A stretch of 64,000 nucleotides of DNA, from assembly GCF_003096035.1 (NCBI RefSeq), contig NZ_CP029186.1, positions 3,640,001 to 3,704,000 of the forward strand, read 5' to 3'. This document shows positions 42,389-51,792 of this stretch, piece after piece. The notes below the pieces were generated by a model, which saw only the letters and a list, made by a program, of their open reading frames with translations, did not search any database and had not been told where the DNA came from. This DNA is from Flavobacterium album. Lineage in GTDB: Bacteria; Bacteroidota; Bacteroidia; Flavobacteriales; Flavobacteriaceae. The position numbers were made by a program, and so were the translations under genes. The number at the start of each line of letters is the position of its first letter. Positions within the stretch are counted from its first letter, which is position 1.

Positions 42389-42895
42389 TTATGTAAGGTG
42401 CTGTAGCTTATCGTGATCCGCTGCATTCAAGAACCGTTCCATGATAAGCTTCAGTTTTGGGTTAATGTAAAGTTCGCAAAAAGGTTTTGTCGGATCGCTG
42501 AAATAGTAGTCCAGCAGCTCCTGCCTGCTCCGGGTAAAGGACACAAAAGGAAGTACCCGGGTGATCAAAGGCTTATCGAATTCAGGCTGCAAAGCCCTGA
42601 TAATATCAAGTGCCTGCCGCCTGTCCCCTTCATTAAAAGTATAAACCGCCGACCTGTATTTATCCCTCATCGGGTGCATCGAGGTACTGCTGTGGGTATA
42701 TAGATGGATGGCAATAAGCGTTTCGAAAGGCATTATATCATCTTCATAAGTGACAATTACGCCTTCTGAAAGTGATGAATTTTCGCCATCTGAGGCAATC
42801 CATCCCTGCTCAACCGACACGATTCCTTTCAATGAAGAAAAAACCGCTTCGGTACACCAATGGCACCCACCTCCAAAACCCGCCTGCTTACTCAT
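42389..42895 (-). CDS. Divergent short MsrA-like protein
   Basis: A 168-residue paralogue of peptide methionine sulfoxide reductase A. It keeps the catalytic loop GGCHWCTEAVF (about 8-18), a conserved DxxxFxxLxxIHLYTHxST block and KYRSAVY, but lacks the GYxGG motif and the SGxTGHAE segment found in normal MsrA, including in the neighbouring gene. It is about 10 residues short of a standard MsrA core and overlaps the 3' end of the MsrB-MsrA gene by 8 bp. Either a reduced enzyme with changed specificity or a regulator. Confidence 0.82.
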   Translation of the reverse strand: MSKQAGFGGGCHWCTEAVFSSLKGIVSVEQGWIASDGENSSLSEGVIVTYEDDIMPFETLIAIHLYTHSSTSMHPMRDKYRSAVYTFNEGDRRQALDIIRALQPEFDKPLITRVLPFVSFTRSRQELLDYYFSDPTKPFCELYINPKLKLIMERFLNAADHDKLQHLT

Positions 42896-43883
42896 CCGCT
42901 TTTACTTTCTGCGTATCTTTCAGCTTGCTTTTAAAAAGCTCCTTAAACTTCTTCAGCTTAGGGTCGATAACCGCCTGGCAATAGCCCTGCTCTGCGTTGT
43001 TAGCATAATAATCCTGGTGGTAAGCTTCCGCTTTATATAACTGTTCAAATGGAGCAATTTCTGTTACTATTGGGTCTCCGTAAGCGGGCTGCATCTCACC
43101 GATCACACTTTGCACAATGCCTTTCTCCTTTTCATTCCTGTAAAAGATAACACTGCGGTATTGTGTCCCGGCATCGGCGCCCTGCCTGTTAAGCGTTGTA
43201 GGATTGTGCGTACTGAGATGTATCCGCAGCAGATCGGCATACGATATCTCATCAGGATCATAGGTAACCTCGATTACTTCGGCGTGGCCTGTCATACCGC
43301 TGCAAACTTCCCTGTAGGTAGGGTTATCAATGTTGCCGCCGCTGTACCCGCTTTCCACACGGCTAACGCCTTTAAGCAAAGTAAACACTGCCTCAGTACA
43401 CCAGAAACAACCGCCGCCAAACGTTGCTTTCCTTTCATTGCTTTCTACTTTTTTCAGGGCTACGGCATTCATACAATACCTCAGCCCGCCTGGTTTAGGC
43501 CCGTCAGGAAAAACATGTCCCAGGTGGGCATCGCAGGTATTGCATACCGTTTCTACGCGCACCATACCATGGCTCACATCTTTATTATACGCAATAGCAT
43601 TCTCTGTTACCGGCTGCGTAAAGGAAGGCCATCCGGTACCGCTTTCAAATTTTTCAGCGGCATCAAAAAGCAATGTACCGCAACATACGCAGGCATACTT
43701 GCCCGGCTCGAATAAAGAGCACATTTCCGAACTGAACGAGCGCTCCGTACCCTTCAAACGTGTTATCCTGAATTGCTCGGGAGTTAAAAGCCGCTGCCAC
43801 TCCTCATTGGTTTTTACAACTTTTTCAGTTGGCATAGGGTTGCCGTTATTGGCAAATTTTACAATATCAATCCACTTAAGCAT
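42888..43883 (-). CDS. msrBA: Bifunctional methionine sulfoxide reductase MsrB-MsrA
   Basis: A 331-residue fusion in MsrB-MsrA order. MsrB (about 20-145) has zinc CxxC pairs (CVCC near 61-64, CNTC near 117-120), the GTGWPSF motif and the catalytic Cys in RYCMN. MsrA (about 160-320) has GGCFWCTEAVF, VESGYSGG and SGMTGHAEV. It reduces both R- and S-sulfoxides of methionine. No signal peptide is seen, so it is cytoplasmic. First gene of a three-gene operon with a divergent MsrA-like protein and a flavin monooxygenase. An internal ATG (MPTEKV, near residue 17) is an alternative start. Confidence 0.93.
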   Translation of the reverse strand: MLKWIDIVKFANNGNPMPTEKVVKTNEEWQRLLTPEQFRITRLKGTERSFSSEMCSLFEPGKYACVCCGTLLFDAAEKFESGTGWPSFTQPVTENAIAYNKDVSHGMVRVETVCNTCDAHLGHVFPDGPKPGGLRYCMNAVALKKVESNERKATFGGGCFWCTEAVFTLLKGVSRVESGYSGGNIDNPTYREVCSGMTGHAEVIEVTYDPDEISYADLLRIHLSTHNPTTLNRQGADAGTQYRSVIFYRNEKEKGIVQSVIGEMQPAYGDPIVTEIAPFEQLYKAEAYHQDYYANNAEQGYCQAVIDPKLKKFKELFKSKLKDTQKVKADE

Positions 43884-44054: not shown

Positions 44055-45761
44055 TTACTCCCTTCTGTTTTTTTGTGCTTTAAATTTCATTACATCTTTG
44101 CTTAATGACGTGTCTTTAGGGTTAAAGCCCATAAGTTCGGAAGCTATGAACGGATTGGCTTCTATAGACCCGGCTATGATTTCATATGCTATTTCCCTGA
44201 CAGGTACCTGCAGGGATTCATGCTTGTGGAATTCGATCTTAATAACCTGCAAAAATGCCTCCATCCTGCTGTCTTCAAGCTCATTGGCATAAAAGCGCTT
44301 TATCTCGCCGGCAAGCACATCAACGTTATCAATGTTGGCAAAATAGTTATTGAGGCAATTGTGTGCGTCGAACTTTTTGTGCCAGCCTTCCAGCAGCAAT
44401 TCCTGCGCCTTTAAAGGCTGGCCCATTTTCTTCCGATAAATAAGCGATGCTTTTACAAACTGGTTATTTTTTACATAATCTTCGGCAACCATTGCATAAT
44501 AGCGGCTGGCTTCGGCCTCGTTGTTCAGGGCCGCATAAAGCTCTGCAACTTTTTCAGTTTTCTCCAGTTCTTTGTAAATATCTATCGCTTTGGCATACAG
44601 CCTGCCTTTTTCAAAACATTCCGCAGCGCGCGGCTTGTCTTTGCAATACTTTAGGTAAATAGCACCAGCCTCGCCATAATATCCGCCATCTTCCAAAACC
44701 TGTGCTGCCCCGTAATTGTCCTTCAGTAATTTCAAGTACACCCCTGCAGCCTTTTGGTATTCCTTTTGGGCAATGAAATCTTCGGCCAGTTGCTCATAAC
44801 GGTTTCTAAGAATAGAAAATTTGTCATGGTCAATAGTTGCAGAAAGGCCTCCGCCTGTACGCCCTGTTCTCTTATCATTTTTAAAAGCTGAATAAAGGAA
44901 CCTCCCTATAAAAACAAAGAGTATAAAAGGAAAAGATGAAGATACCTTACCACTAAATACCAAGCCAAGAAGGAATACCGCCCCCAGTATGACACCAACT
45001 ACATATAGCAATGTCCTAAGGTCTGATCCGGGGCTTAACATACCACTACCGGTTTTGCCAAATTTGAACCTGCCGCCCCCTCCTCCACGGGAACTGCCGA
45101 TACTATCCAGGGGGATGCCCAGCTTCAGGGCTTCTTCCGGATGCTTTTCCAGGTATTTAAGCAACTTATCTATTTCCTTCTGGTTGCCCTTCATGACCTT
45201 ATCGATGTTAAAAGGCAGCTTACCCGAATCCGGCTTCTCAACCTGGCCTTCTATGACCTCCGCCAGTTTTGCCTCATCGGCCTCGATACTTAAAGACCGG
45301 ATAAATCGGGGTATATACACCCCTTTTGAAGGCACTGTTATTTCTGCCTCCTTAAGTTCCGGCATTGCTATAAGCGCGTCCCAATCAATTTCTTCTGTAA
45401 GCTCGATCAGCCCTGTTTCCTGATGTATGACATAAGCGGCGGCGGTAAACTCGCTGTTCCATTCTGCAGAACTCAGACCGGGGGATATGATGGTATTCTC
45501 AGGGATAAAAAGCACATTATTCACACACTGCATAAAATTGTGTTTCCCTATATCGTTAACCTTCGTTCCGCCTCTCGGCACTACAAGGCAGCCGAAAAGC
45601 TCATTAGCAGCTGAGCCGGGAAGCGCATACATGGAAATATTTTCCGGCTCCAGTCCCATCCTATAGATCTCCTTCAGCCATACACCGGCATCGGCGCCTT
45701 TAATGAGCACGGCAGACCTTGAATAACTGTTTTTATGATACGGCCTGATCTTAAGCTCCAT
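44055..45761 (-). CDS. Membrane TPR component of the MoxR-vWA-propeller operon
   Basis: A 568-residue protein with three parts: a soluble N-terminal alpha/beta part (about 1-225) ending in a Gly-rich linker (GGGGG at 226-230), two transmembrane helices (about 250-270 and 277-293), and a TPR-like helical part (about 320-520) with repeats such as EDFIAQKEYQKAAGVYLKL and CFEKGRLYAKAIDIYKEL. No enzyme motif is seen. It is the last gene of the five-gene operon and overlaps the previous gene by 11 bp. As the only membrane member it could anchor the complex or carry out its output. Family resemblance to bpX0-like components is from memory and unverified. Confidence 0.8.
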   Translation of the reverse strand: MELKIRPYHKNSYSRSAVLIKGADAGVWLKEIYRMGLEPENISMYALPGSAANELFGCLVVPRGGTKVNDIGKHNFMQCVNNVLFIPENTIISPGLSSAEWNSEFTAAAYVIHQETGLIELTEEIDWDALIAMPELKEAEITVPSKGVYIPRFIRSLSIEADEAKLAEVIEGQVEKPDSGKLPFNIDKVMKGNQKEIDKLLKYLEKHPEEALKLGIPLDSIGSSRGGGGGRFKFGKTGSGMLSPGSDLRTLLYVVGVILGAVFLLGLVFSGKVSSSFPFILFVFIGRFLYSAFKNDKRTGRTGGGLSATIDHDKFSILRNRYEQLAEDFIAQKEYQKAAGVYLKLLKDNYGAAQVLEDGGYYGEAGAIYLKYCKDKPRAAECFEKGRLYAKAIDIYKELEKTEKVAELYAALNNEAEASRYYAMVAEDYVKNNQFVKASLIYRKKMGQPLKAQELLLEGWHKKFDAHNCLNNYFANIDNVDVLAGEIKRFYANELEDSRMEAFLQVIKIEFHKHESLQVPVREIAYEIIAGSIEANPFIASELMGFNPKDTSLSKDVMKFKAQKNRRE

Positions 45762-48165
45762 GGTTCAGGATGGTATTAATAAAGGGTTGAAAATATTTGG
45801 CATCAAAATCATCTATTGCTATATATTCGGTCCCTTTAGTGTCGTTATAATAATCGTCGCTTCCCACAAAACAGGTATCTGTAGCCATAGCCAGCGGGAC
45901 ATGCAGTGTGGTAGGCATATAAATTGCCGGTATATCAGGATTGCTGCTCTTCAAAGTAAGAATGCCAAATCCGTCAGAATATACCGCACTGCCATCAGGG
46001 AAAACAAATCTTTTGCTTTTCCATTCATACACTGCCTGTACAGCAACTTCAAAAACCCTGTTACCGGTCAGGATTATACTGCCATGATACACAGAGGGAT
46101 CGTTTATATTCAAACGGTGCTTATTGATCTGGAGCTGTCCCTGTTTCGTTATGCACAAAGGCATAAAATTCTGAAGTACGCTTTTATATGTAAATATGTT
46201 ATTAAACCTTTCTATTTTCTTTTTAGTATCTGTAAATCGCTGCAGTATCCCATCCGGGGGCAAGGCGCGCCTCACGTCCAGCTCAGTATCCCTTACGGAA
46301 AGAAGTAAATATTCTTCTGCTGCTTCATTAAAGAGGTAAAAGCCATCATCCTCAACTATAGAATAACCGGAAACCCCGCCAATCAGCGAAACACCTTTTT
46401 TATGGTATTCCCTTGTATTAAGGTTGAGCATAGAAACATACATTGCTTTGGGATAAAATGCCGCCAGAATGTACTCCCCATACTCATTAACCTGAAGGGC
46501 ATAAAGGCCATTCTGGTTTACAGAAAGGTCGTGCAGCAGCAATTCGGCGCCTTTATGCATTTTAAAATAGTGTCCTTTGTTTTCCGGCAGGGTTACACTA
46601 ATCCTGAAAAAAGTACCGGCATTGGTCAACAGAAAGAATTCATCATCCCGAAGGGCAAATACCGCCAGGTGACTTTTAGGCGGAGGCACGAGAATGGGAT
46701 AATTTATTTCGGGGACTGTACTGTCCCTTCCTGTAGTATGTTTCGACGGTGGTGATTTTTTTCCCGCAGGCTTTTTAGCCCATAGCTCTTCCAGCGGCAG
46801 CCAGATGTGCTGTATGAGTTTCCTGCTGCGGTTCTGTACCCTATAGAAATTGAGGCTGCCCCCTGCTTCTGTGGTAATTATATACTTAACCTTATCGTAG
46901 TTATCGCTTAATGCGCGCTGCATATCTGCTGCCGCAAGGGCATCTTCGGTAGTGATAAGGAATACCTCCGAATGTTTTACATCAGTATTTTCATCCAGTA
47001 TGGCGCAGAGTGCAGGGGCAGCATGGAGCTGTGACCCTAAATTATTGAGGCCATCGATAACATCCTCTACGGTTTCCGCACTTATCTCTTTGTAACCATT
47101 GCCGATGACAAATATCCTGCATTCGATATCCGTCCTGGGATGTTTGGCTATTGCAAGTGCCGATGCGAATGCCAGTATTTTTGGTATTCCCCAGTTTTTC
47201 AGGGAACAGTCTATGAGCAGCAGCCGCACAAATTTATCCGACTCCGGCGGTACCTCACGCTTTATATAAAGCGCTTCGTTATTGGCTATGCGCGACATAA
47301 AAACATCATCGTCATACGCAAACTCAGAAATGAGCAGCTTATCAAAGTCGCCCTTATTGGTAAGATCGGACACCCCGCCCAAAGGCTGGTGGCTTGGCGC
47401 GGAATGATGCAGCGGAATATTGAGTCCGCCCCAAATGCGGTGTATCAGGCTGCCTACAGGAAACGTTTTAGGCTCATCAATGAGCTGGTCTGTAAAACTG
47501 CCCGATACTTGTACAGGCTGCTGCTCTGCTATCTTTTCATCCAGCACTGGCAATTCCGGCACACCGCTTATGGCGGCCAGCAAGGCTTGGTGTGTTGGAT
47601 ATTTTACATTTAAATGTGCAAATACATTAATGTCTTTCTTAAGTGTCGCTTCGCTCAGGGGCAGTTTTTTTGCACATTCTACAAGCAGGTGTTTATGCTC
47701 CCTGTAATGCTGCATTATGGTTTTGGCATTCCTTTCCGAAACCCGGTTATGGCAATCTTTAAAAATGGCCTGCAGCAGCTCTTTTCGCTTATCGCCCTCC
47801 CTGAATTCCGAAGGCAGCTCACTGAGGGTAGTTAAAAAATTCCGCGCATAGCTAAACCCTCTCGGGTATACGGTTTCCCTTGTAACGCTTTTGCTGTTGT
47901 TGACGATCTCAAAAACCTTTGCGAGCGAATCTTTCCCGTTATGGTTGGTTGCTATGAGCGCCAGGAGAAACGACCCGAATGGCGGCAAACCGTCAGGCGA
48001 AAGCAGCTCAAGCGTTTCCATGACAAAACGCTCGTAGGCAATAGTGCTGCCACCCGGTATAGTAAGGGCCTCAAAAACGTTATCGGGAGAAAAAACCTCG
48101 GTTTCCCACACCCAAAAATAGTTGTCGTATGATTGGAAATACTCCTTAATATCCATTTTGCCCAA
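45751..48165 (-). CDS. vWA/beta-propeller fusion of the MoxR operon
   Basis: An 804-residue protein. Residues 1-230 are helical; 313-435 look like a vWA domain with the metal-site loop LLLIDCSLK (Asp319, Cys320, Ser321, Lys323), in which the last Ser of DxSxS is Lys, followed by FLITTED near 402-408; a Pro-rich linker (about 465-490) leads to a C-terminal beta-propeller (about 495-800) of repeated four-strand units (e.g. ALRDDEFFLLTNAGTFFRIS, GFYLFNEAAEEYLLLS). Known families: MoxR ATPases act with vWA proteins as chaperone-like remodellers. Here the vWA and propeller are fused. The start at 48165 overlaps the previous gene by 20 bp; ATG 48156 is an alternative. Confidence 0.82.
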   Translation of the reverse strand: MGKMDIKEYFQSYDNYFWVWETEVFSPDNVFEALTIPGGSTIAYERFVMETLELLSPDGLPPFGSFLLALIATNHNGKDSLAKVFEIVNNSKSVTRETVYPRGFSYARNFLTTLSELPSEFREGDKRKELLQAIFKDCHNRVSERNAKTIMQHYREHKHLLVECAKKLPLSEATLKKDINVFAHLNVKYPTHQALLAAISGVPELPVLDEKIAEQQPVQVSGSFTDQLIDEPKTFPVGSLIHRIWGGLNIPLHHSAPSHQPLGGVSDLTNKGDFDKLLISEFAYDDDVFMSRIANNEALYIKREVPPESDKFVRLLLIDCSLKNWGIPKILAFASALAIAKHPRTDIECRIFVIGNGYKEISAETVEDVIDGLNNLGSQLHAAPALCAILDENTDVKHSEVFLITTEDALAAADMQRALSDNYDKVKYIITTEAGGSLNFYRVQNRSRKLIQHIWLPLEELWAKKPAGKKSPPSKHTTGRDSTVPEINYPILVPPPKSHLAVFALRDDEFFLLTNAGTFFRISVTLPENKGHYFKMHKGAELLLHDLSVNQNGLYALQVNEYGEYILAAFYPKAMYVSMLNLNTREYHKKGVSLIGGVSGYSIVEDDGFYLFNEAAEEYLLLSVRDTELDVRRALPPDGILQRFTDTKKKIERFNNIFTYKSVLQNFMPLCITKQGQLQINKHRLNINDPSVYHGSIILTGNRVFEVAVQAVYEWKSKRFVFPDGSAVYSDGFGILTLKSSNPDIPAIYMPTTLHVPLAMATDTCFVGSDDYYNDTKGTEYIAIDDFDAKYFQPFINTILNHGA

Positions 48166-48892
48166 TAGTGTATGTTAAACGGAATGAGCTTATGGAGAGC
48201 GGCATGAAAGCTTCTTTTTCTATAGGAATGTACGAATTGTCCTTATGCCATAGAATCATCATCGAGTTACCAGGGTCTATCTGCTGCATTAGCTTTTTGG
48301 CAAGCAATGGCAATTCAAAATCAAAACCGGCAGGCAGCAGGAAATCGTTATACATCCAGTAAGATGCGCCGGCCACGGGCAGCAATGGTGTACCCGCTAT
48401 GAGCACCTCATCGTTCACGCCCACCCATTGTAACCCGGCGAGCCGCACTTTGGGCGCTGTGTTAATGTAATCTCCTGCCGCTGTTCTTTCGGCAAGCACG
48501 GCATATACCGGCTGTTCTTTTTGTGATGGTACTATCCTGATGCCGATCTTTTGGCTGATGCCAAAGTAGTTATGGTTAAATAACGGAAGTTTCACCGGAA
48601 GCGCATAGGTCAATGGCGACCACAGCAAATTGTGGGGCATTTTCCGTACCGGCAAAAGGCTGCCCTTCAAAAACAACAGCCCGTCCTTCGCATAATAGAC
48701 CCTGCTGTAGGGCAAACCTTTAATAATGGCGCTTTCGGCCTGCTCCGGAGTGATATCCTTAACCCAAAGCGATCTTTCATCAAAAGCGGCCTTCAGGTTA
48801 TCCCAATGCCTTATTTGCCCTAATAATTCCTTATGGGCAGCGGGTATCTCCAGCAAATGATCTGTTACAGGGTTTGCAGTATAGTTTGCCAT
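48146..48892 (-). CDS. Beta-rich accessory protein of the MoxR operon
   Basis: A 248-residue protein with no motif of a known enzyme and no export signal. The first 60 residues are helical (LLEIPAAHKELLGQIRHWDNL); the middle is beta-rich with Pro-rich turns (PVRKMPHNLLWSPLTYALPV); one Trp/Tyr motif, SYWMYNDFLLPAG, is near 175. The gene lies between the MoxR and vWA/propeller genes, overlapping them by 28 and 20 bp, so it is translated with them. I infer an adaptor between MoxR and the vWA protein; related proteins are, from memory, called bpX components. Confidence 0.72.
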   Translation of the reverse strand: MANYTANPVTDHLLEIPAAHKELLGQIRHWDNLKAAFDERSLWVKDITPEQAESAIIKGLPYSRVYYAKDGLLFLKGSLLPVRKMPHNLLWSPLTYALPVKLPLFNHNYFGISQKIGIRIVPSQKEQPVYAVLAERTAAGDYINTAPKVRLAGLQWVGVNDEVLIAGTPLLPVAGASYWMYNDFLLPAGFDFELPLLAKKLMQQIDPGNSMMILWHKDNSYIPIEKEAFMPLSISSFRLTYTIGQNGY

Positions 48893-49995
48893 AAGGCCTC
48901 GATCTCGCGTTGAATATATTGTTTTTGCTCGCCGTTAGCTATCCAGTCACACCTTGTCTGCAGGTACCTTAGCTTGTCTTTTATCACGTTCTTTTCTTCA
49001 AAAGAAAGCGAACTGTCCTGCCATCTTTCGGCAAGGAGCTTAACGTCCTTTATCACTTCTTCAGGGTTCGGGGCTTTATTGAACGCAGCCTGCGGATGGC
49101 TTGCCGGATTGGTATCCTTTTCAATAACCGCGTTTATTATGCTTTCCAGCACTTCTATCTGCTCTTCGGTGTCCCATATATACTTGAGCACCCACAAGTC
49201 AGAAAGTGTTGCCTCCATGCGGCCGCACATCAGTGCGCTTGCCGCAATAAGGTTCTGCAGTTTTACAGCCCTCCTGTCGGAAACTTTAATCCCGGTGTTC
49301 CTGAGGTTGTGCACCAGGTCTACATAAGGCTGGCGTATGCCCGTGAGGTCTACCTCCCTGCATGCTGCCTGGAGTTCTTTAATTTCGTCGGCATCTATGG
49401 TGGCCAGGTCGTCAGAAAGCCGGTTTTCCAGCTTCCAGCCTGCCAGCAATACTTCGTGAAGCTGATCGGGGTCTACATAATCACATTTTATACGGATCAG
49501 GAAACGATCCAGCAGGGCGTTCAGTGCCTCATCTTCGGGAAGGACATTGCTTGCCCCTACAAACATCAGGGCGGGAAGCTTCCTGGTCTCTTTACCCCTC
49601 CTGAATATCTTTTCATTGAGCGCCATCAGAAGGCTGTTGAGTATTGCTGAGTTGGCATTGAATATTTCATCAAGGAATACCATTGACGCTTCAGGCATCA
49701 TACCTTCGGTGTTTGTAACCAGTTCCCCATCTTTCAGTTTCCTGATATCGAAAGGCCCGAATATTTCGTTAGGCTCGGTAAACCGGGTAAGCAGGTATTC
49801 AAAATTCCTGCCTTGCACTATCCTGTCGGATAACGCTCTTACAATAGCGCTTTTTGCCGTTCCCGGAGGCCCCAGCAAAAAGGCATTCTCCCTGGCTATA
49901 AGGCCTATTCCCAAAAGGTCTATAATTTCGTTCTTGCCTATAAAAGTGCTTTTAAGCTGCGATAAGGCGTTGTTTAATTTTTGTGCCGTAGCCAT
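48865..49995 (-). CDS. MoxR-family AAA+ ATPase
   Basis: A 376-residue AAA+ ATPase. Walker A is GPPGTAKS with Lys48; Walker B is MVFLDE with Asp109/Glu110; sensor 1 is GASN with Asn150; the Arg-finger region DRFLIRI holds Arg164 and Arg168. The C-terminal lid (about 190-300) is followed by a helical tail (about 310-376) that is longer than in the simplest MoxR proteins. It should form a hexamer that remodels a vWA-bound client using ATP. It stands 43 bp downstream of the 209-residue gene and overlaps the next gene. Confidence 0.9.
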   Translation of the reverse strand: MATAQKLNNALSQLKSTFIGKNEIIDLLGIGLIARENAFLLGPPGTAKSAIVRALSDRIVQGRNFEYLLTRFTEPNEIFGPFDIRKLKDGELVTNTEGMMPEASMVFLDEIFNANSAILNSLLMALNEKIFRRGKETRKLPALMFVGASNVLPEDEALNALLDRFLIRIKCDYVDPDQLHEVLLAGWKLENRLSDDLATIDADEIKELQAACREVDLTGIRQPYVDLVHNLRNTGIKVSDRRAVKLQNLIAASALMCGRMEATLSDLWVLKYIWDTEEQIEVLESIINAVIEKDTNPASHPQAAFNKAPNPEEVIKDVKLLAERWQDSSLSFEEKNVIKDKLRYLQTRCDWIANGEQKQYIQREIEALWQTILQTL

Positions 49996-50038
49996 GCGTG
50001 TATATAAAGAAATGCCCTAAACAGGCGTAATTAATTAG

Positions 50039-50668
50039 TTATTGAAATTCGCGCCAAAAATCGTTTTTATAGTCGCCCATATTGGCCAGCAGGGCGCTTT
50101 TGATTGTAGCTTCATCTGCCCATTTGGCTGCTTTCCTTTCGGTTATCCTGTCGAGGTAAAGCTGCCTGAGGCAATCGTTATCCATGGCAGCCGCCAGATT
50201 TGCTGCGGAGGGGCCTTCATCGGTACCAATGGCAGAATAGTGGAAATCTTTGAGGTAAGCGTTTAAGATCGTTATTAACGGGTCGTTGACATCTACCTTT
50301 TCGAGTGCGTGCTTTATGGAGGGCAGGAAACGCAGGCACAGGTCTGCCGACAGCATTGCAGAAGCATCTATGCCGCCGCTGTATGGAGGCAAAAGTGACT
50401 TAAGCTCTGTTGCCTTATCCTCACGGTAGAGGAATAGTTGGGCAGCACCGTATACTGTTTTGGCAGCCCATAGTGCAGCATTTGGCGAAAATGGAGGAGC
50501 TGTAAAGGGATAATCCGTGGCCTCCCTTTCATATTCGCCCTCCAAAAACGCGATAACGTCCTGCTCTTCCCTGTAAGGTATCGGCGCCAGCCTGTTGTAG
50601 AGTATGATATGCTCTACAGTGCGCAAATGATATAAAGTTTCAAGAAAAGGCCTGTCGGGCTGGTTCAT
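50039..50668 (-). CDS. Helical protein opening the MoxR operon
   Basis: A 209-residue all-helical protein with no recognised catalytic motif. Notable features: an N-terminal segment LYHLRTVEHIILYNRLAPIPYREE, a central helix FSPNAALWAAKTVYGAAQLFLYR and a C-terminal part with several short helices. No signal peptide or membrane helix. As first gene of the operon, 43 bp ahead of moxR, it is probably a dedicated partner; in MoxR-vWA-beta-propeller ternary systems small helical bpX proteins occupy this position (family knowledge from memory, not searched). Confidence 0.7.
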   Translation of the reverse strand: MNQPDRPFLETLYHLRTVEHIILYNRLAPIPYREEQDVIAFLEGEYEREATDYPFTAPPFSPNAALWAAKTVYGAAQLFLYREDKATELKSLLPPYSGGIDASAMLSADLCLRFLPSIKHALEKVDVNDPLITILNAYLKDFHYSAIGTDEGPSAANLAAAMDNDCLRQLYLDRITERKAAKWADEATIKSALLANMGDYKNDFWREFQ

Positions 50669-50702: not shown

Positions 50703-50710
50703 CAAAGTTA
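50703..50710 (-). promoter_or_regulatory. -7 box (TAACTTTG) of the MoxR-vWA-propeller operon
   Basis: Perfect TAnnTTTG match on the minus strand, 34 bp before the ATG at 50668. No TTG at the usual distance. It is the only such box I found ahead of the five genes, in line with a single transcript. Confidence 0.5.
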
Positions 50711-50793: not shown

Positions 50794-51792
50794 CTACTCC
50801 TTAAACTCATCATCAACAGCCTCGCGCAAATCATACAGGAGCCATTGTTTGGCAAGAACGGCATTTTTTTGGGACCTTAATAATGCGATAAAATCTTCGA
50901 CGCCAACAGGCTCATTGCCATTGCCATGAATCAGGACAATACTACCCGCCTGTGCGTGCTGCCCTTTCGCCAGCCATGCATCGCTGCCGACTGGAATAAG
51001 CCCGTAACCGGTTACGCGCCCTACGATGGCATTATCCGAAACAAGGCCCGGAAAGCGGAAGAAGACTGAAGGCAGCAACCCACGCTCCAGCATGGAGATC
51101 TCGGTGCCGAGTATTTCAAAATCAAGGTCAGTTCCCGGCTCAAGAAGGAAATTATCCTTCAGTGGTATTTTAGGGTCAAAATGGTGGTTATAGGTGTGGT
51201 TTACCCATGTAATAGTAATATCGCCTGAAGTTACAAGGCCTTTGAGCCATTGGATGTCTTCCGCATGCGTGAGCATAAACTTGCCGCTAACCGATAGCGC
51301 TACAGGTACAGGCTTTTCTATCTTTTGGAACTCTGTAATGAGCGAGGTGAAAACGATCCTGTCCAATGGCTTGTGCGAAGGGCAAAGGTCGATGGTCAGT
51401 GTTACACCATGTTCTTTTGGAAAGCCATGGATGATCCCTGCATCCTGCAAAGCAAACGACTGTTTCTTTGCAGTGAGAATGGCCTTAACGTAGGGTGTAT
51501 CCTTGTATTTTGATAAAAGCTCTGACCAGTTGAGCGGGCTTGCAACTATATTTTTGGAAGGAACCATTTGTGTCTCCAGTGCTTGGGGATCGACAGCGAG
51601 ATAGCTTTCAATACTGTTCCTGGTAAATTTCCTGAGAAAGATAAGGTCGCGTGTTCCGTACTTGCCGTAGCCGTAAAAAGCTTTGTAATTCCCTATCGTT
51701 TCCTGTGCGCCTGCGAGATTGCCTGTTAAAATAACGACCGCTATGATGAAAGAATGAAATATGCGTGGCATCAGCCTGTACGTGCTTTTCAT
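50794..51792 (-). CDS. Polysaccharide deacetylase-like protein, exported
   Basis: A 332-residue protein with signal peptide (about 1-29, ending NLAGA). The NodB-like fold covers about 125-310. The expected TFDDGP motif reads TIDLCP, so the catalytic-base Asp is kept while the second, metal-binding Asp is Leu; the metal motif HTYNH is intact, as are FRFPG (motif 3) and LIHGNG (motif 5). The enzyme may still bind zinc through the two His residues. It would act on a cell-envelope or extracellular glycan. It lies 7 bp after the amidohydrolase-type gene, so they are co-transcribed. Confidence 0.83.
   Translation of the reverse strand: MKSTYRLMPRIFHSFIIAVVILTGNLAGAQETIGNYKAFYGYGKYGTRDLIFLRKFTRNSIESYLAVDPQALETQMVPSKNIVASPLNWSELLSKYKDTPYVKAILTAKKQSFALQDAGIIHGFPKEHGVTLTIDLCPSHKPLDRIVFTSLITEFQKIEKPVPVALSVSGKFMLTHAEDIQWLKGLVTSGDITITWVNHTYNHHFDPKIPLKDNFLLEPGTDLDFEILGTEISMLERGLLPSVFFRFPGLVSDNAIVGRVTGYGLIPVGSDAWLAKGQHAQAGSIVLIHGNGNEPVGVEDFIALLRSQKNAVLAKQWLLYDLREAVDDEFKE

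Follow-up and report, generated by a model that had tools for sequence, protein, structure and literature searches.

A complete MoxR-vWA-beta-propeller (bpX) system in Flavobacterium album, probably acquired by transfer, and the RNA-repair neighbourhoods of some of its relatives

Ternary systems that join a MoxR AAA+ ATPase to a von Willebrand factor A (vWA) protein and a beta-propeller are described by Kaur et al. (2020; PMC7159879), where the bpX type forms subsystem 4. In the available text of that source, the ATPase of the bpX subsystem often carries a GXXXTAKS P-loop, the propeller of the vWA component has about four blades, and ~62% of vWA components combine an N-terminal helical bpX0 domain with a C-terminal beta bpX1 domain. 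In the same text, the GxxxTAKS P-loop is also frequent in the FtsH type, whose vWA domain is divergent. The present analysis concerns a stretch of 64,000 nucleotides from Flavobacterium album (contig NZ_CP029186.1, positions 3,640,001 to 3,704,000), referred to here as the window. The five open reading frames (ORFs) on its minus strand at 44055-50668, of 209, 376, 248, 801 (804 with a TTG start) and 568 amino acids, constitute, with near certainty, a complete bpX system of subsystem 4.

The assignment comes from a Pfam scan of eight proteins, namely the five encoded by the operon and those of three flanking window genes. Each operon protein matches its own bpX-system family far above the cut-off, in gene order bpX4, bpMoxR, bpX2, bpX0 with bpX1, and bpX3 (Table 1), and the ternary-system identity put forward in the original prediction therefore holds for every partner protein. 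The bpMoxR family reaches 340.6 bits against a cut-off of 27, and the GxxxTAKS P-loop is found in 89 of 90 relatives. RavA is the top NCBIfam model for the ATPase (192.4 bits against a cut-off of 681), and all NCBIfam matches of the locus fall below their cut-offs. None of the eight proteins is matched by Pfam to VMAP, STAND or FtsH. The genome holds a single bpX locus, with bpMoxR found once at E 1e-20 and the three other genome matches of the ATPase being weak, at 21-28% identity. For the comparison with other genomes, 20 systems were fetched (11 from a sample of the window's genus and 9 from a phylum sample) and the best 80 of 174 relatives were added, leaving 90 distinct systems after removal of identical vWA proteins. 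Gene order is identical in all 90 and all five families are present in 87, the three incomplete systems (L045, L059 and L119) lying on short or cut contigs; the five genes are thus conserved together in other genomes, as had been expected.

In the 801-residue protein Pfam names only bpX0 and bpX1, with no vWA or propeller match, and the claimed fusion of a vWA domain to a propeller draws its support from the predicted structure. The vWA model ranks the metal ion-dependent adhesion site (MIDAS) domain of midasin first, in a tie with other vWA domains that include Ro60. The MIDAS motif is incomplete in the window copy, reading DxSxK and not DxSxS, and in 41 of 41 proteins the third position is K, R, I or M and Asp is absent at residue 403. 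The segment that precedes the vWA domain (residues 221-308) has mostly low predicted local distance difference test (pLDDT) values in the model. Across 19 systems its mean pairwise identity is 83%, and variability among the folded regions is highest in the propeller and not in bpX3; mean identities are 53% for bpX3, 58% for the tetratricopeptide repeat (TPR) part and 57% for the vWA domain. Flavobacterium system L029 (10628-13165) and many other Flavobacterium systems have a ribosomal L7/L12-like domain (PF00542) as an insert within the propeller protein; the window copy lacks it.

The bpX2 protein, called beta-rich, fits that description roughly, its predicted structure mixing alpha and beta elements (mean pLDDT 84.1, predicted template modelling score 0.60), and the model finds no PDB match at E<=0.001. 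The last protein, called a membrane TPR protein, does carry two hydrophobic segments (Kyte-Doolittle 2.74 and 1.81, the second weaker in the window copy), and two such segments are also present in all 14 of the other fused proteins examined. Its repeats are TPR-like by eye, with weak matches (Pfam SNAP 0.14; NCBIfam SgmX 0.0018) and no significant TPR family match. The bpX3-membrane and repeat parts are fused in the window, whereas in 64 of the 90 systems, mainly those of Chryseobacterium, they are split into at least two ORFs (bpX3-membrane and membrane-TPR); Flavobacterium system L041 also has them separate.

The favoured reading, held at a probability of roughly 0.6, is that of a complete, probably transferred bpX system that acts as a membrane-anchored, ATP-driven remodeller, as RavA-ViaA and midasin do. 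What may be inferred of docking, topology, client recognition and remodelling is that a MoxR ring, hexameric by analogy, would dock on the vWA protein, with the nearly invariant stretch ahead of the vWA domain as a possible contact, while the variable propeller would recognise a client protein or ribonucleoprotein. At the inner membrane the bpX3-membrane-TPR protein would anchor the complex, its bpX3 domain and its repeats sharing one side of the membrane, and bpX2 and bpX4 may serve as constant adaptors. ATP hydrolysis would remodel the client or set it free, in the manner of RavA-ViaA and midasin.

Table 1. Features of the bpX locus, numbered by position in the window
Feature	Coordinates	Strand	Details
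Possible Bacteroidota -7 box TAACTTTG	50703-50710	minus	34 bp ahead of first ATG
bpX4 (PF19920)	50039..50668	minus	209 aa; operon's first gene; Pfam E 5.8e-78
bpMoxR AAA+ ATPase (PF20030, AAA_5, AAA_lid_8)	48865..49995	minus	376 aa; Pfam E 2.6e-102
P-loop GPPGTAKS (GXXXTAKS variant of bpX subsystem)	49849..49872	minus	Read from translation
bpX2 (PF19918)	48146..48892	minus	248 aa; Pfam E 5.6e-89
vWA/propeller protein: bpX0, vWA, beta-propeller, bpX1	45751..48156	minus	801 aa from conserved ATG
bpX0 domain	47575..48051	minus	Residues 36-194; Pfam E 9.1e-46; helical in model
Conserved pre-vWA segment, candidate MoxR-docking element	47233..47496	minus	Residues 221-308
vWA domain, incomplete MIDAS	46777..47232	minus	Residues 309-460; vWA matches at 306-453 in predicted structure
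Beta-propeller region, without L7/L12-like insert	46015..46704	minus	Residues 485-714; Foldseek and VIA matches to propellers
bpX1 domain	45769..46014	minus	Residues 715-796; Pfam E 1.5e-26
bpX3-membrane-helical repeat protein	44055..45761	minus	568 aa; Pfam bpX3 E 2.8e-57
bpX3 domain	45249..45758	minus	Residues 2-171; Pfam
Two hydrophobic segments, possible membrane hairpin	44889..45014	minus	From about residues 252 and 277
TPR-like helical repeat region	44082..44831	minus	About residues 311-560; pattern by eye

The transfer component of this reading draws on a 38-system tree, in which 37 loci hand-chosen from 80 were added to that of the window, built from the MoxR, bpX2 and vWA proteins by a quick search under LG+G4. 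The window copy pairs with that of Emticicia (Shimodaira-Hasegawa approximate likelihood ratio test 100; 70% identity), and the two adjoin F. zepuense and F. rakeshii, away from the other Flavobacterium rows. Because its nearest relative was found in Emticicia and not in Flavobacterium, the window copy was probably acquired horizontally; the tree program flags the window's amino-acid composition as unusual, with the warning that this does not in itself prove transfer. Other hosts among the relatives found include Taibaiella, Epilithonimonas and Glaciecola, a gammaproteobacterium whose system has all five families. The 245-kb Hymenobacter yonginensis plasmid NZ_CP115397.1 (L222) likewise carries all five, with a third component of 959 amino acids and a site-specific integrase gene ~8 kb upstream of the system. 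Insertion sites were compared in eight Flavobacterium stretches that lack a bpX system. In L178 and L182 the exonuclease gene c2 and the neighbour c15 lie 57-59 bp apart, and in L029 the five-gene module stands between them; the module was therefore gained or lost there as one unit. L181 has two other genes between c2 and c15, and the other five stretches do not have c2 or c15 so arranged.

The distribution, taken from samples that are not exhaustive, is uneven. In Flavobacterium, bpX4 is sporadic (12 of 199 genomes); a family-wide draw gives bpMoxR at E 1e-20 in 1 of 149 genomes; and a phylum sample of 395 genomes from 170 genera gives bpX2 in 10, of two genera only. This scatter, the clean insertion of the module in some genomes, the plasmid copy and the likely transfer across orders and phyla all favour the role proposed, as far as the available text of PMC7159879 goes, by Kaur et al.: an anti-phage or anti-invader conflict system in which the machine would sense infection and the membrane protein would be the effector. 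Neighbours that resemble reverse transcriptase (c27), SWIM zinc-finger (c22) and WGR/HEAT (c24) proteins by eye occur near Flavobacterium systems (flanks of L028, L038, L039, L051, L052, L058, L068 and L090; c27 also in a Cytophagales bin) and would fit such a role. In Chryseobacterium, however, bpX2 is near-core, present in 108 of 118 genomes and broken by stops in one of the 108, and a common neighbour family (c0) lies beside 53 of 101 stretches compared. Defence systems are usually patchier than this. Moreover, the system has no recognisable effector, and bpX3 is not hypervariable, its identity across the 19 systems being like that of other parts. In PADLOC, four of the operon proteins are unmatched at E 0.01 and MoxR has a weak AAA match, and bpX2 has no match in a phage collection. 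A conflict role is on balance judged possible, with the odds against it.

The surroundings of the relatives raise another reading, an RNA-damage module in which bpX would handle damaged tRNA or ribosome-related ribonucleoproteins together with RNA ligases, end-processing enzymes and extra tRNAs. The same neighbour families recur on opposite sides of bpX in Flavobacterium and Chryseobacterium, the names being those of scanned representatives and including a cREC_REC cyclic-phosphate-processing receiver, a calcineurin-like phosphoesterase and an Rnl2-type RNA ligase. Genes often found ahead of the module in Flavobacterium encode an RLIG1-like ligase, a 261-residue protein of a recurrent family (no Pfam match; ATP-grasp-like by eye), a Band_7 protein, a phosphoesterase and an RNase_T exonuclease, and in Chryseobacterium several families of this island stand on the other side with RNase H-like, cREC_REC, ATP-grasp and Rnl2 ligase genes. 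The RLIG1-like gene is present in 9 of 12 Flavobacterium genomes with bpX versus 6 of 187 without (Fisher 9e-10), the 15 matches including one that is partial and one with a stop; Band_7 is present in 8 of 12 versus 42 of 187 (Fisher 0.002). The corresponding figures for Rnl2_C in Chryseobacterium are 83 of 108 versus 1 of 10 (Fisher 5e-5), and in 78 of the 83 the distance to bpX2 is no more than 16 kb (median 11.5 kb). None of these tests takes shared descent into account, and the counts may represent perhaps only two to four independent associations. A TROVE gene near the Taibaiella system and the tie of the vWA fold with Ro60 and midasin agree with this reading. An endonuclease V gene lies near the Glaciecola system, and the same cluster has a member beside L041.

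Extra tRNA genes point the same way. At least three are found in 56 of the 64 systems whose last gene is split versus 11 of the 26 others, and arrays of them lie between bpX and the RNA-repair genes in L043 (15578-17200), L046 (2097-4405; 15 tRNAs), L053 (16527-18220) and other Chryseobacterium loci. The 15 array tRNAs of L046, which lies in a complete Chryseobacterium genome, are 52-73% identical to the nearest of the 45 housekeeping tRNAs compared, which are not the full set, and the nearest shares the anticodon for 13 of 15; by its sequences the array resembles a second tRNA set.

Against this reading stands the window copy itself. The 64-kb window has no tRNA gene, 42 window ORFs give no match at E 1e-4 to 290 island proteins, and the RNA-repair island (RNA ligase with tRNA or RNA-end-processing genes) seen in many relatives is not there beside the module. 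The window genome has no RLIG1-like gene at E 1e-10 and no Band_7 gene at E 1e-30, and its one Rnl2-like ligase stands alone, away from bpX. The Emticicia and F. zepuense flanks compared hold no family in common with the island, no island family is named within 14 kb of the Hymenobacter plasmid system, the flanks of all three are without tRNA, and the island also occurs without bpX. Support for an RNA-damage role thus comes from the neighbourhoods of relatives and not from the window copy, and for the system as a whole such a role is considered doubtful.

A third alternative, a metalloenzyme maturation chaperone like CoxD-CoxE for carbon monoxide dehydrogenase, draws on the xanthine-dehydrogenase-type genes that lie beside the Emticicia system (L048:14413-17060) and near the Hymenobacter plasmid system (L222:5000-9157). 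At E 1e-5, however, neither of the two Emticicia proteins has a match among the other ORFs that flank the systems fetched, and no such family was found in the three flanking window genes scanned, which makes this role very improbable.

Given the near-core status in Chryseobacterium and the RNA-repair and tRNA neighbourhood, a stress or RNA-damage role must be taken seriously as an alternative to a conflict role. A bolder version, put forward as speculative and unlikely as it stands, would have bpX act as a midasin/Ro60-like membrane remodeller of a translation-damage response and not primarily as a phage sensor: the ligases would mend ends, the second tRNA set would sustain translation, and bare copies such as that of the window would use distant repair genes or have a related role. 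The membrane-anchored remodeller remains the preferred reading for the window. New here are the contrast between sporadic and near-core occurrence, the RNA-repair and tRNA neighbours in many copies, the vWA model tied with midasin, and the propeller as the variable part. Within a single order, a system classed with conflict systems can thus belong to the near-core genes of one genus and be scattered and probably transferred in another. Its near-universal presence in Chryseobacterium, where laboratory strains allow deletion, offers a handle for functional study, and the recurrent RNA ligases and tRNA arrays point to a testable class of clients.

The layout of the operon agrees with most of what had been read from it. 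The five minus-strand genes in tight order were confirmed in coordinates and strand. Of the claimed junction overlaps, those of 28 bp (MoxR-bpX2) and 11 bp (vWA-bpX3/TPR) stand, but that of 20 bp between bpX2 and the vWA gene applies to a TTG start and becomes 11 bp with the ATG at 48156, which is the most likely start because 19 aligned relatives begin at the equivalent residue. The -7 box claimed ahead of the first gene (TAACTTTG) is present; it is weak promoter evidence, since the window holds 3 copies of the word versus 3.3 expected by chance and no -33 TTG was seen by eye. The gap between bpX4 and MoxR is 43 bp in the window, and exceeds 500 bp in 17 of 89 systems, where it holds extra genes for a ~174-199 residue protein (DUF4919 in the one scanned) and a hydrophobic protein of 232-241 residues that is sometimes duplicated (no Pfam match in the one scanned); examples are L055:4421-7437, L060:5233-7519 and L098:1018-2333. 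Just downstream of the operon lies a fused methionine sulfoxide reductase gene (42389-43883; SelR and PMSR by Pfam), followed by a second MsrA-like ORF recognised by eye. Just upstream, 50794-51792 encodes a 332-residue protein that Pfam leaves unmatched at E 1; of the other 198 genomes of the genus, only 3 have a homologue at E 1e-40.

As the original prediction supposed, bpX systems appear to have little or no experimental description: no experimental work on them, and no link between them and RNA repair, was recognised in the open-licence PMC literature among the matches listed. The available portions of PMC7159879 and PMC7824862 contain no link of bpX to RNA-repair systems. The bacterial RNA-repair systems reportedly treated by Burroughs and Aravind in 2016, in work that both of these papers cite, resemble the present case in the RNA ligases, cREC_REC, TROVE and tRNAs that adjoin related bpX systems, though not the window copy. 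A useful parallel is the Anabaena tRNA array, which the available text of PMC10272220 describes as induced by translational stress. With RavA-ViaA, and also with CoxD-CoxE and midasin, the locus shares an ATPase that fits RavA best and a vWA model that places midasin first in a tie; it differs in staying below the RavA cut-off, in having the extra propeller, bpX0-bpX4 and membrane parts, and in lacking the complete MIDAS (DxSxS and the strand-4 Asp) of midasin. The VMAP, iSTAND and FtsH ternary systems, as covered by the available text of PMC7159879, have the MoxR-vWA core in common with it, whereas the locus matches none of VMAP, STAND or FtsH and has no recognisable effector. Measured against bpX subsystem 4 as presented in the same text, the window copy appears to depart in three respects: it is without the L7/L12 insert reported for several Bacteroidetes; no C-terminal propeller is recognised by Pfam in the third component, which 'typically' has one together with C-terminal TPRs; and in the window's clade the propeller of the vWA protein is variable instead of the third-component N-terminus, which is highly variable in the wider set of the paper. 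It shares with subsystem 4 the five proteins, their domain order, the GxxxTAKS P-loop, the divergent vWA domain flanked by bpX0 and bpX1 regions, the extra conserved genes and a membrane-spanning third component with its N-terminal globular domain.
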